A DNA stretch of 64,000 bases from Glomus cerebriforme (Eukaryota > Glomeromycota > Glomeromycetes > Glomerales > Glomeraceae), in contig QKYT01000007.1 of assembly GCA_003550305.1 (NCBI GenBank), positions 100,412 through 164,411 on the forward strand, in the 5' to 3' direction. Below the pieces are notes generated by a model. It searched no databases and was not told the origin of the DNA. It worked only from the letters and a program-made list of their open reading frames with translations. Positions 22,886-38,194 of the stretch are shown here, piece after piece. Each line of letters opens with the position of its first letter. The first letter of the stretch is position 1. A program made the position numbers and the translations under genes.

Positions 22886-23246
22886 ATCGATTCTATCAAA
22901 GCATTTAAAAAGAGTGCTAAAATCCATATTGAACAAGCAGATGAACTCAAAAATCAATTCAATGAACTGAAATCTCTTATCGCGCAACAACAGTTCCTAC
23001 ATCTCGTCATGTAAACCGAAGCCGTGTTCGTAGACCCAACCTTATCCTTTAGTTTCTTCTCATAAATCATCTATTCAAACATCAATAAATTAGGTTATAG
23101 TTCTTCATCCTCAACAAATGAGTATCCCTGCTGCGACAGGCTTTTCTGACAATGAATCTTTCTCTGTCAATTCAGAGAATTATAATGGCAATAATACCAC
23201 TTACGATGCTCATGAGTCAAATGATTTTGATAGTATTATTAGATAA
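22886..23246 (+). pseudogene. Decayed coiled-coil coding remnant
   Basis: 22886-23013 reads as a Gln/Glu/Leu-rich helix (for example EQADELKNQFNELKSLIAQQ) to a stop. A shifted frame then continues with a basic Arg-rich piece and, from about 23105 to 23246, an acidic Ser/Asn-rich tail ending at a stop. I do not recognise the family. The style resembles gag-like remnants further right, but I see no direct match. The upstream start is not identifiable. Confidence 0.3.
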
Positions 23247-23780: not shown

Positions 23781-26700
23781 ATGGACAACGAAGGTACTAC
23801 TTATTAATTTTTTTTTAAAAAAAGAAGGAAATAATATGAAAATTGTATTAGTTTTAGTATTTGTCTTCTAGAAAAAATTATTTGTATCATAAAAAATATA
23901 AATTAAATAAAATTAATTAAATATTCAATATCAAATATATCCAAATATTATAAATTAATTTTCTTTATTAAATGATATTAGTATTAACACAAATTATTCA
24001 AGCATTGGATATAATTTATAATCCATTGACTACAAATGAATCTAGGATTAAAGCTCAAGAGGTTTGCTTTTGTTCTTTATATTAATAATTCTATTTTAAT
24101 CACTTTAACGAATATATATATATTTTTTTTAAAGTATTGCGATTCAATTAAAGATCATCCACTTTCACCAATTTATGGAAGATATTTGGCTCATTCAGAA
24201 AATAATCTATCCCCTATGTCACGTCATTTTGGACTACATTTATTAGAAAATGCAGTTAAATTTAAATGGAATGATGGAACTTACAATAATGAAGAAAAGC
24301 ATCAAATTAAACAAGCTATAATTGAATTGATTGAGAGGGTAATAGATAATTATTTATTAATCCTTTGATATATATTTATTTATTTATTTTTATACATAAA
24401 ACTAAAATAATTTATATTAGGGAATTCAAGACATATTGACAGAACAACTATTTATTAAAGAAAAAGTTGCAAAATTATTTGCTGAAGTAGCAAATAAAGA
24501 GTGGCCATTAATATGGAATGATATGGATAAATTATTACAAAGGCTTTATAGTGAAAGTGTACGTCTTTTATTAGAGAATGTTAAACATTTATTTTAAGAA
24601 ATTTATAATTTTGTTTATTTATTACAGCCAACCACACAAGAAATTGTGTTATTTATATGTCGTTATTTAGCAGAAGAAACTGAAATACGAGATTCATTAC
24701 AATGTGTAATTGTGAGTTCAAATATATTAAGAATTCAATATCCTGATGGATTAAAAAAAGAAAGTAGACGAGAAGATTCAGGAAATGTTACTATTATGTT
24801 TGGAGATGATCCAAATAATGAAGGATGGTTGATTAGATGGACAAGAAGTTTAGAACAAACTGTTGGTGAATGTCAAAATCAGGTTAATAGATATTTTTTT
24901 TTTTTTGAAAAAAATAAATCGTATCTGGTTATAAAGTGAATTTAAATGAAATTTTGTATTTATTAATTTAGAAAAGGTTGCCAAATCCAAATATGCAAAT
25001 AATTTTAGTACAGGAAAAATTAACAATTGCTATTTTAAATACTTTAGCTGCTACATTGGATTGGGTTCTTATAAGGTATTTTAATCTTAAATATATGAAT
25101 ATTGTTTTTTATTTTTGAATTTATTTTAATTTATTTTAATTTAATTAGATCAATCGCAGAATCAAATATTATATTCATTCTTTGTAATTGTTTATTAATT
25201 GATTGCTATGAAATAAGAATGGTAAATTAATATTCATATGTTTTCAAAAGATTGGAAGTATGATTTCCTTACAAACTTTTTATTAAATTATATTATAGGA
25301 AGCAATCGAATGTCTTGCAAAAATTTTTTCACGAAATTTTCAAGGAGCGGAAGATCGTGCAATCGTTTTTGAACCATTATTTGAAAAAGAATGTATGGAT
25401 TTATTATACAATGCATATAACAAAATACAACCCGCTGGAAAAGAAGTATTGTTAAAAGATGATGAATATACATATTTGAAAAGATTTACTGAAGTTCGTA
25501 TACTTTTATTATACAGTTAGCATTATTTATAAAGTAATTTATTTTATTTTATGTAGACTATAACTGATTTGGGAGTAAGACATATTTGTTTTAAGAATAT
25601 CTCAGTGATGCCGAAACAATTTCCAAAGTATTATTTATGTATTTAATTTTAAGTCATTATTTTTTCAAAAGATTTTTCGTTTATGATCTTCTGTTTTATT
25701 TAGATATTTGGAATTAATTTATATAATTTCGAAACATTCATCAAATATGATAACTTCTATATCAATAGAATTTTGGCATGCTGCAATGAAGAACAATTTT
25801 ATCTCAAAGGTAAACCCGGATTTTTAATAAGTTTTATATTTATTATTTTTTTTTTTAGGATTAAGTTTTTATTTTTTGTTAGATAATAAATGAACAGGAA
25901 AGATTGCCAATTATGTTGTTGGAATTATTTACAGAAAGGCTTTCGATTGTAAGTATCTCCAATTCTTCTATTTGTTTTTTTTTTGAATTAGAGTATTTTA
26001 GTAATTAATAGGCAACTTTCTTTAATAAGTTATTTCAACCTTCAGAACATATTGAAACTCCCACATCATATTATATGAATCTTGATTTTGATTCACAAAA
26101 TGATTATCGAATATTCGGTCAAATATTACGTTCAACAAAAGTTATTGAAATTATAAAAAGTGTTACAATTATGAGACCTATTGAAGTTTTTAAATGGATG
26201 ATTGATAGAATACAAATTACATTTAATGTGAGACCAAATATCGAAAGTTTAGATGGTAAGCAAAAATAAAGGCTTAGATCCGAGTTTATTTTTTTTATTA
26301 TTATTTTAAACTGTTTTTTGTTCTTTTAGTTGATGGAGTATTAAAGATTGATTCTGGATTTTATATAAAATTTGATGCTGAAATGATTTTAATGGAATCG
26401 GTTGTTATCGGATTAGGAAAATTAATTAAAAATGTTGATAATGAAAATGGAAATATCAATGATGAAGATAGAAAACAAATTTTAAATGAAATGAATAATT
26501 TATTACAAATGTTGTTAGAAATTACATATGAAGTAAGAAATAAATGGGATTGACATTTTTTTTTTAAAAAAAAAAAAAAATTTTTAAACATATATATATT
26601 TTTTTTCAACAGGATGTGCTAATGACACATAGATATTTAACGGCATTAGAGGCATTCGAAGATATTTTACAAATTGATTCAAGATTATTGTTTCAGGTGT

Positions 26701-29700
26701 TACAAAAGGTGAAATCTACGTTTTCTTTTTTCTTTTTTTTTTATATTTAACATTTGTTAACCAATTTTAAATATATATTTATCTTTAGATGTTTACATTT
26801 GTGACATTTTGTCCATCAGGACATGTTGTTTCAAAAAATCCTTTATTACCTTTCCCAATAAAAAGATTAAGATTTGGAGCTATTACTACTTTAATTAAAT
26901 TTGGAGTTGCTATGCCTGATAATTTAATTGTAAGGAAAAAAAATTCATATTTGAATTAAATAGTTCTGTATAAATAATTTGATTATTATCTTTTTTTTTT
27001 CTTTAGAATATATACTCCGATATCTATAATTATATTAATGGAATAATTGATAAAGATAAACATCTTGTCACTGGAAAAGAAAAAAGTTCTTTACTAGAAT
27101 TTTTAATATCAATTGTGTAAGTTCTTATTATTAATTCTTCTTTAAGATTTTATTTATTTTACTCATTTAAAATTGATTTTTATTTAGATATTTTTCTAAA
27201 ATTCCATTAGAACAGAAAAAACCATTATTTGATTCAATAGTTTGTCCAATTATTAATAATTTACAAAAAATAAATGTAAATTCAATTCAAGAATTCTTGG
27301 ATAATACTGGTTTTAGCTTTTTGATTAAAATGGGTAAGTCAGTCCTTGATAATATGATTATCATTTTAAAAAATATATTATTTTTAACTAATTTATGATA
27401 TTTTTTTTTTTTTAAAAAAAAAAGTTAATGAAAAAGATGGAACATATGCATATAGTGAAGGAGAACGTATTTCTAAATTGAATAGGAATATAACTTGGTT
27501 ATTAACTACTATTTTAAGTTGGTTAAAAAGGACCACGGAATATCCTTCCAAGGTAATAAGAAATACAATATATGTATTAATTCATTTATTAATTTTCATT
27601 TGTTATATTATAGGAAGAAAGTAATACAGTAATGATTGAAGCATCAAACTTATGGCAACAATACATACCTTCTATATTAACTATAACACTAAGTTTTATA
27701 AGGTAAGATATATGAAAAGTTTTCACATTGTAATATTTTTTAATAATGAGTATATATTTGTTTAGAATGTTACACCAAGTTTGGAATACTGAAATCTGGA
27801 GAGAATTTCCCATTGAAATACATTCTATCATATCATTATCTAACGAAGATAAAGCTAAAATTATAGGTGCGTAATTATACATTTAAATTACTCAATTATT
27901 TAATCATTAAATATGCATATATATTATTTAATAGGAATGTCACAAAAATCTACGATGATAGAATCACAGCATTCAGTTGATGGGATGATTGATTCACTTA
28001 GGAAATGGCTTTCAAGTACCAGAATTGACTGGTAATTATAAGATCGTTTTTATTTATTGTAACAATCTATAAAAAAAATTAACTTATTTATTTTTTTTAA
28101 GTTACTATATACTTGGCCGATTGCCACTTCTTGGTTCCAATTTTTATACAGCATTACCAAACGTAAATGAATTATTAGCCCAGTCATTATTTGAAAATGC
28201 CGAATGGATTAATAATATTCATTGGAAATTTTTACTAAATATCCTTAATTATTATTATTTTTTAATAAAAATTATTTTTATTATAAATCCTTAACCTGAT
28301 GATTTTAATTTTTTACATATAGTAATAAAACCATATATATTAAATTGTCCTACACCTTCAATACATTCAAGTTTTTTACCACAATTACTTAAGTATATTG
28401 ATGAAAAATTATCAAAAGAATGGAATGCTTTAGTAATAAAAGGTGTACAAATTTCTACTATGGAAGAGTAAGCAAATTGATTTATTCAGTTATTAAGTTA
28501 TCAATTGTTTAAACCAATTTAAATAACATGACTTTATACTTTTTTTATAGAGCAATAACATTGGAACAAAGTTTATTAGAAATAAATAGTGATGAATTTG
28601 AAGAAATATTCAATGAAAAAGTTTTAAGAGATTTAACAAGAGCTTATGTGGATTTATTGGAACCTATTTTTGGAAATTCTGTAAAAAAAGGCGGGAAAAT
28701 TACAAATAAAGGAGTAGCTGTCAATGGTAAGTTTAATGATTGGTTTAGTAATTTAATATATAATAAATATATATTTTTTTAATTAAATTTTCAAAAATAA
28801 AATTAGAAAATAATGAATTAAAAGAATATATGTTGGATTACATGGTAAGCTATTCTTAACTAATATTCGTTCAATATCGTAAAATCAATTTTTATTTAAA
28901 AAATTAATTTGTTATAGCCTATAACAGAACCTTTCTTGATGAGTTTATGTCACTTAATAACATACAAAGATTCTGTATCATGTATACGAATAACACGATT
29001 ATGTGCAAAATTGCTACCAAGTTTAATAAAACAAGAAGGATTAAGAGAATTTGTTGGAAAAGAATTGTTAACTTCTGCTTTACAAGTAAAAAAAAAAATA
29101 CATATATACATTGTTTAATTGTTCGTTTTTGATTTTTTAAAAACAGATCAACTTGTTTAATTTAGGCATTGCATGATGGTTATCATAAAGAAGCTCATCC
29201 TTCGATAATATCTTTAATAACAGATATTTATATTGATTTAAGACCCATTTCTTCCGTTCCTTTTGAAACATTTGCTAATTTATTAAATATGGATTATGGA
29301 AAATTACAAGTAAGAAATTAAATATAAAGTATTTTGAATTTTTATTTTCAAAATTTTTAATTTTTTTTTAATTTAGAAATTTGAAGTTGATTTAAGTCAA
29401 GCAACTGAATCCAAAACAAGAAAAAGTATTGTAAAGAAATTTTTAGAAAGAATAACAGGAGTAAATATATTTCAAATTAAAACTTATTTATATAATTTTT
29501 TATTAAAAAGGTTAAAAATATATATATATATATATATTTTTTGCAAAATTTAGGTTTCAAAAGGTGAATGGTTTAAAATAAATACTACAGAACAAAATAA
29601 AAGTTCAAAGAAAACTTTTGTAGGTAATTATACAAAACCTCAAATTGGAATATTGGATGTTGTAAATGATTCAGGACAAGTTGGATTAGATAATTTGTTT

Positions 29701-29709
29701 GATGAATAG
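23781..29709 (+). CDS. XPO5: Exportin-5 / MSN5-type nuclear export receptor (29 exons)
   Basis: Exons: 23781-23793, 23982-24061, 24135-24338, 24421-24558, 24628-24882, 24972-25075, 25149-25221, 25299-25493, 25557-25627, 25704-25809, 25883-25948, 26012-26255, 26330-26532, 26613-26708, 26789-26929, 27007-27116, 27188-27333, 27425-27552, 27614-27702, 27766-27866, 27935-28031, 28102-28238, 28317-28467, 28551-28726, 28807-28844, 28918-29085, 29166-29309, 29377-29460, 29554-29709. They sum to 3714 nt, 1237 aa (human XPO5 1204, yeast Msn5 1224). Karyopherin-beta that exports tRNA, small RNAs or phosphoproteins with RanGTP. Visible: RHFGLHLLENAVKFKWN near residue 70, typical of the XPO5 N-terminus; VAKLFAEVANKEWPLIWNDM, the XPO1-type block; then helical repeats to the end. 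All introns are GT-AG except the one after exon 22, which has AT-AC borders. The first exon is only 13 nt. Confidence 0.93.
28239..28316 (+). other. Putative U12-type (minor spliceosome) AT-AC intron in XPO5
   Basis: Between exons 22 and 23 no GT donor exists. The intron starts ATATCCTT at 28239, the exact U12 5' splice-site consensus, and contains TCCTTAAC at 28288-28295, the exact U12 branch-point consensus. AC at 28315-28316 lies 22 nt after the branch adenosine; AG at 28321-28322 is the in-frame alternative, 6 nt further on. Retaining the intron gives a TAA in frame at 28291. Removing 28239-28316 joins the exons in frame as FLLNIVIKPYILN. Confidence 0.85.
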
Positions 29710-38121: not shown

Positions 38122-38194
38122 CGCCCAACGTGGGGGTCGAACCCACAACCTTGAGATTAAGAGTCTCACGCTCTACCGATTGAGCTAGCCGGGC
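38122..38194 (-). tRNA. tRNA-Lys (anticodon CTT)
   Basis: A 73-nt minus-strand cloverleaf: acceptor stem GCCCGGC pairs with GTTGGGC (two G-U pairs), discriminator G, D-arm with TAGCTCAATCGGTAGAGC (A box), anticodon stem-loop GAGACTCTTAATCTC with CTT, T-arm GTGGGTTCGACCCCCAC (B box). No intron; CCA is not encoded, as expected for eukaryotes. Confidence 0.97.

Follow-up and report, generated by a model that had tools for sequence, protein, structure and literature searches.

Structure of the XPO5 gene

The window, a 64,000 nucleotide stretch of contig QKYT01000007.1 of Glomus cerebriforme, carries on its forward strand a gene for an XPO5/MSN5-type karyopherin at positions 23781-29709, which was modelled with 29 exons and 28 introns. 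The conceptual translation matched Exportin-5 (PDB 3a6p, E = 2.2e-66) and yeast MSN5 (9d43, E = 9e-45), and homology to these proteins extended along the length of the product in comparisons with both PDB and public protein sequences. The top public match, at 99%, was to a protein of G. cerebriforme, a species in Glomeromycotina.

Intron borders were set by eye, seeking GT and AG, and reproduce the public G. cerebriforme protein exactly, except at introns 1 and 11. The disagreement at intron 1 arises from another first exon in the public model, which opens with an upstream exon (MSIPAATG...) at about 23118-23232 of the window. A Rhizophagus irregularis XPO5 entry is without that exon, which, judged by eye, may have been joined in error from an unrelated reading frame further upstream. 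For intron 11 (25949-26029), 26029 is a more probable end than 26011, since six residues that the shorter intron would leave in the product are absent from the public protein. Elsewhere in the window, the sole Rfam match at gathering score was a tRNA gene at 38122-38194 on the minus strand.

A probable AT-AC intron between exons 22 and 23

It had been predicted from the sequence that all introns of this gene but one have GT-AG borders, and 27 of the 28 modelled introns do start with GT and end with AG. The remaining intron, at 28239-28316 on the forward strand, has the borders AT-AC. It is 78 nt long, lies in phase 1, and was recognised by its motifs, by the reading frame and by homology of the flanking exons. 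Exon 22 (28102-28238) aligns with its homologues and ends in HWKFLL plus one base; exon 23 (28317-28467) starts with the remainder of the split Asn codon, followed by IVIKPYILNCP.

The sequence ATATCCTT stands at 28239-28246, where it would form the 5' splice site, and is complementary to the 5' end of U11 and to the AAGGA of U6atac. The putative branch-point motif TCCTTAAC, complementary to U12, occupies 28288-28295 and begins 29 nt upstream of the intron end. The AC at 28315-28316 follows the second A of the branch motif by 22 nt, and there is no GT within 28239-28316; among the GT dinucleotides listed, the nearest were at 28183, in the exon, and at 28322, at the opposite end. All of these particulars agree with the original prediction. 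So does the reading frame, in that retention of the intron introduces an in-frame stop at codon 951 and removal of either 28239-28316 or 28239-28322 leaves the frame open. An open frame is weak evidence, however, because 134 pairs of a donor (GT, GC or AT) and an acceptor (AG or AC) at 45-200 nt give joins free of stops.

The consensus of U12-type introns is RTATCCTT at the 5' splice site and TCCTTRAC at the branch point. The AT-AC intron matches both with 0 mismatches, whereas each of the other 27 introns of the gene has at least two mismatches to RTATCCTT and at least two to TCCTTRAC. Taken singly the motifs are not rare in the window, where ATATCCTT occurs 11 times and TCCTTAAC twice, counting both strands. 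At a spacing of 30-60 nt the window holds the pair just once and none of 100 shuffles has it, and at a spacing of 20-300 nt it was found 0.023 times per simulated window (300 simulations). Under relaxed criteria the minus strand offered a second candidate at about 9885-9757; it was dropped, as a simulated window should hold approximately 2.9 such pairs and the sequence itself was unpersuasive.

Choice of the acceptor site

The original prediction had left open whether the intron ends with the AC at 28315-28316 or with an AG at 28321-28322. The two alternatives differ in the predicted protein, which would be two residues shorter with AG. The protein joined at AC is LLNIVIKPYILNCP, which aligns with human exportin-5 without a gap; the stretch is likewise free of gaps against two Basidiobolus proteins, one from Gaertneriomyces and one from Synchytrium (in an alignment of 21 of the 30 proteins found). 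If intron 11 is taken to end at 26029, joining at AC reproduces the public G. cerebriforme protein P0001 without a difference from LTQII onwards, which joining at AG does not do; the origin of the public model is not given, so this identity cannot serve as independent proof that the intron is spliced. We favour the AC at 28316 over the AG at 28322, since only AC would preserve the length of the human and fungal homologues and it is AC that agrees with the public protein.

Minor spliceosome components in the genome

The original prediction had proposed searching the same genome for the four minor snRNAs. In the 112.5 Mb searched (1117 contigs), Rfam models identified U12 (70.8 bits), two copies of U11 (77.0 and 69.2 bits), U6atac (77.2 bits) and U4atac (55.9 bits, against a cut-off of 53), all above their gathering cut-offs. 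A genome devoid of every minor spliceosome component, which had been named as contrary evidence, is thus not what was found. None of 14 prokaryote control genomes exceeded the cut-off for any of the four snRNAs; below the cut-off, matches were obtained in seven controls for U12, three for U11, 11 for U6atac and 11 for U4atac.

Nucleotides 5-19 of U4atac could pair with U6atac at 15 of 15 positions. Set against the letters of the Rfam consensus, a C-G pair is replaced by U-A through a change on each side, and two positions that are mismatched in the consensus are complementary here. These changes are read as a sign of function, since the two genes lie on different contigs. Duplexes were also computed for U11 and U6atac with the 5' splice site and for U12 with the branch motif, their energies being values without a control; the U12 duplex pairs AUCCUUA and displays no bulged branch adenosine. 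The U11 genes, both found as Rfam matches, lie on the minus strand of L004 (1501-1646) and on the plus strand of L005 (1501-1644). The two loci share 85% identity across a 267-column alignment, and one difference between the copies falls on the third position of their matched 5' ends (UAAAAGGG and UACAAGGG), adjoining the region that pairs with the 5' splice site.

A search for the U11/U12 proteins 65K, 31K, 25K and 20K had also been suggested, and in this case the outcome was partial, in that a 25K relative was found (Pfam 54.1 bits; PDB U11/U12-25K, E = 9.1e-6). The set searched comprised 25K, 48K, 59K, SCNM1 and CENATAC; we know of no specific Pfam model for 65K, 35K, 31K and 20K. A 48K candidate with a CHHC zinc finger (zf-U11-48K) scored 35.9 bits against a cut-off of 21.1, which was also passed by one of the 14 prokaryote controls, and in PDB it matched GTSF1 (3.3e-5) better than 48K (1.1e-3). 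A candidate exon for PDCD7 (59K) stayed below the cut-off of 27, with 22.5 bits genome-wide and 26.5 bits on the exon alone, and had no match in PDB. Nothing in the genome exceeded the cut-off for SCNM1 (17.1 against 27), and no match to CCDC84/CENATAC was obtained in the genome or in the controls; profiles were searched exon by exon, so that missing SCNM1 and CENATAC matches do not equal absence.

Genome-wide occurrence of the AT-type signature

The signature ATATCCTT, 30-60 nucleotides of any kind and TCCTTRAC was matched 32 times in the genome, against six matches for a control with the pattern reversed. This count covers the AT-type signature; the GT-type signature (GTATCCTT) falls outside it. 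The distance from branch to acceptor was examined at 29 loci, these being 30 of the 32 matches less L041, which is near-identical to another locus. An AC lay 8-24 nt past the branch adenosine at 26 of the 29 loci, where random positions within these loci would give 15.7. Within a bin of 22-24 nt, which was picked after inspection of the data, an AC was present at 12 of the 29 loci against 3.8 expected (L024, L026, L027, L029, L031, L035, L038, L043, L046, L048, L050 and L052). It was the first AC in seven of these 12, and a nearer AC was also present in the other five.

Spliced models ending in AC could be built for 27 of 30 loci (all but L025, L040 and L051), each taking the AC that yields the longest open frame, which biases the set towards open joins. 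Ten of the 27 models, picked as recognisable, were scanned against Pfam; nine had a match at E ≤ 0.001, one of them only under its cut-off, and one had none. In six of the ten scanned segments the match spans the joined AT-AC junction, with DHHC, ChAPs, MT-A70, RabGAP-TBC and WD40 over the cut-off and ANAPC4 WD40 under it. L040 and L041 carry near-identical signatures approximately 1 kb apart on contig C528, the former having no AC model and the latter a short one, and probably represent a tandem duplication, not minor introns.

Minor introns of animals and plants typically have a branch-to-acceptor distance of about 10-20 nt. U12-type AT-AC introns of these organisms share the ATATCCTT and TCCTTAAC signals and the AT-AC ends with the XPO5 intron, which differs in its longer distance of 22 nt from branch to AC and is short, at 78 nt. 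It is conceivable, if rather doubtful, that this lineage has a subset of AT-AC minor introns with a longer spacing of 22-24 nt, XPO5 included, alongside a class with 11-14 nt, perhaps with another way of selecting the AC and with no recognisable CENATAC. Passages of PMC8280824 describe CENATAC as promoting A-type minor introns in human cells.

XPO5 proteins of related fungi

Sixteen glomeromycete XPO5 entries, some of them from one species, were compared at this junction. In two, P0001 and P0002 (R. irregularis), the sequence shows the join expected from the AC model. A further six (P0003, P0004, P0005, P0007, P0010 and P0012) continue from HWK.LLN into I-L, a run-on that fits reading into AATATCCTT; P0003, P0007, P0010 and P0012 stop no more than nine residues later, whereas P0005 inserts a single extra residue before it resumes. 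The HWK..LLN stretch is missing from the remaining eight (P0006, P0008, P0009, P0011, P0013, P0014, P0015 and P0019). These entries suggest wide conservation of the intron, its 5' motif included, in Glomeromycotina. Protein models from Endogonales (P0020, P0021, P0023 and P0025) break or diverge near the junction or earlier.

Interpretation and alternative explanations

The exact motifs, the four snRNA genes, the 25K relative and the genome-wide excess of the signature argue for the reading originally put forward, and we regard 28239-28316 as very probably a U12-type AT-AC intron of XPO5 (probability about 0.96). Against it count the branch-to-AC distance of 22 nt, which is rather long although an AC at 22-24 nt is frequent at the other signatures in this genome, the missing matches to CENATAC and SCNM1, a 48K candidate closer to GTSF1 and a 59K candidate below its cut-off. 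That the lineage would retain a working U12 system, as had also been proposed, fits its gene content and the signature excess. From known biochemistry we infer that the intron is spliced in vivo and in what order the events would take place. U11 would pair with ATATCCTT and U12 with TCCTTAAC; U4atac would bring in U6atac, which would displace U11 from the 5' splice site; attack on 28239 would come from the branch adenosine (28293 or 28294), and the exons would be joined from 28238 to 28317.

The same U12-type intron might instead end at the AG at 28322, joining 28238 to 28323. The frame stays open in this AT-AG form, and passages of PMC8280824 attest the existence of AT-AN minor introns, but two residues would be lost where human XPO5 and the proteins of two Basidiobolus, Gaertneriomyces and Synchytrium align without a gap, and the product would not be identical to P0001; we consider this ending unlikely. 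There is very little likelihood that the major spliceosome uses an exonic GT donor, removing 28134-28322 or 28183-28371. Both choices keep the frame open, and the absence of the HWK..LLN stretch from eight of the 16 models is what gene finders forced to other borders might yield; yet in both cases the exons would lose parts alignable with human XPO5 and with other fungi, and the exact pair of U12 motifs would be left unexplained. GT-AG options running through exon 22 were rejected on the grounds that residues aligned with homologues would go.

An AT-AC intron removed by the major spliceosome is not known to need an exact minor 5' site together with an exact minor branch motif. Such a U2-type intron is quite improbable at this position, for while major AT-AC introns are known (as passages of PMC8280824 state), the exact minor 5' site and branch motif are both present and minor snRNAs are encoded. 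The interruption might finally be a sequencing error, or the mark of a pseudogene, in a single broken exon. This seems scarcely credible for a gene of more than 1200 codons that is otherwise open, and glomeromycete entries give either the same joined product (two of 16) or the N-I-L run-on (six of 16).

Relation to known minor introns of fungi

A minor-intron survey covering R. irregularis appeared in Nucleic Acids Research in 2023 and is reportedly the work of Larue and Roy. The portions of this paper available in PMC10639083 report 205 minor introns, all four minor snRNAs and many minor spliceosome proteins, with phase 1 as the commonest phase, into which the XPO5 intron also falls. R. irregularis is a different species from G. 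cerebriforme, within the same phylum and with the same four minor snRNAs. The words exportin and XPO5 do not occur in the main text of PMC10639083. Minor introns have also been described in Rhizopus oryzae and Phycomyces blakesleeanus (in parts of PMC2846911), likewise early-diverging fungi with U12 introns, which number about four in the former and about 20 in the latter (as restated in passages of PMC10639083). The original prediction had cited Rhizopus alone as a fungus with minor spliceosome components; its account of the fungal background needs to be updated with the R. irregularis set reported in 2023 (portions of PMC10639083). Searching the literature for XPO5 together with terms for minor introns gave no XPO5 among the matches listed, and PMC10639083 was the sole paper found to combine 'minor spliceosome' with 'arbuscular mycorrhizal'.

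Since the report on R. irregularis exists, the minor spliceosome system is already known from that species, the XPO5 intron is a further example, and the biological surprise is small. The genome of G. cerebriforme adds a complete set of minor spliceosome RNAs in another glomeromycete, together with an XPO5 intron that allows a test of conservation across the subphylum. As 14 of the 16 glomeromycete entries depart at this point from the expected protein, it is suggested that gene prediction confined to GT-AG borders spoils the models of such genes in these fungi.
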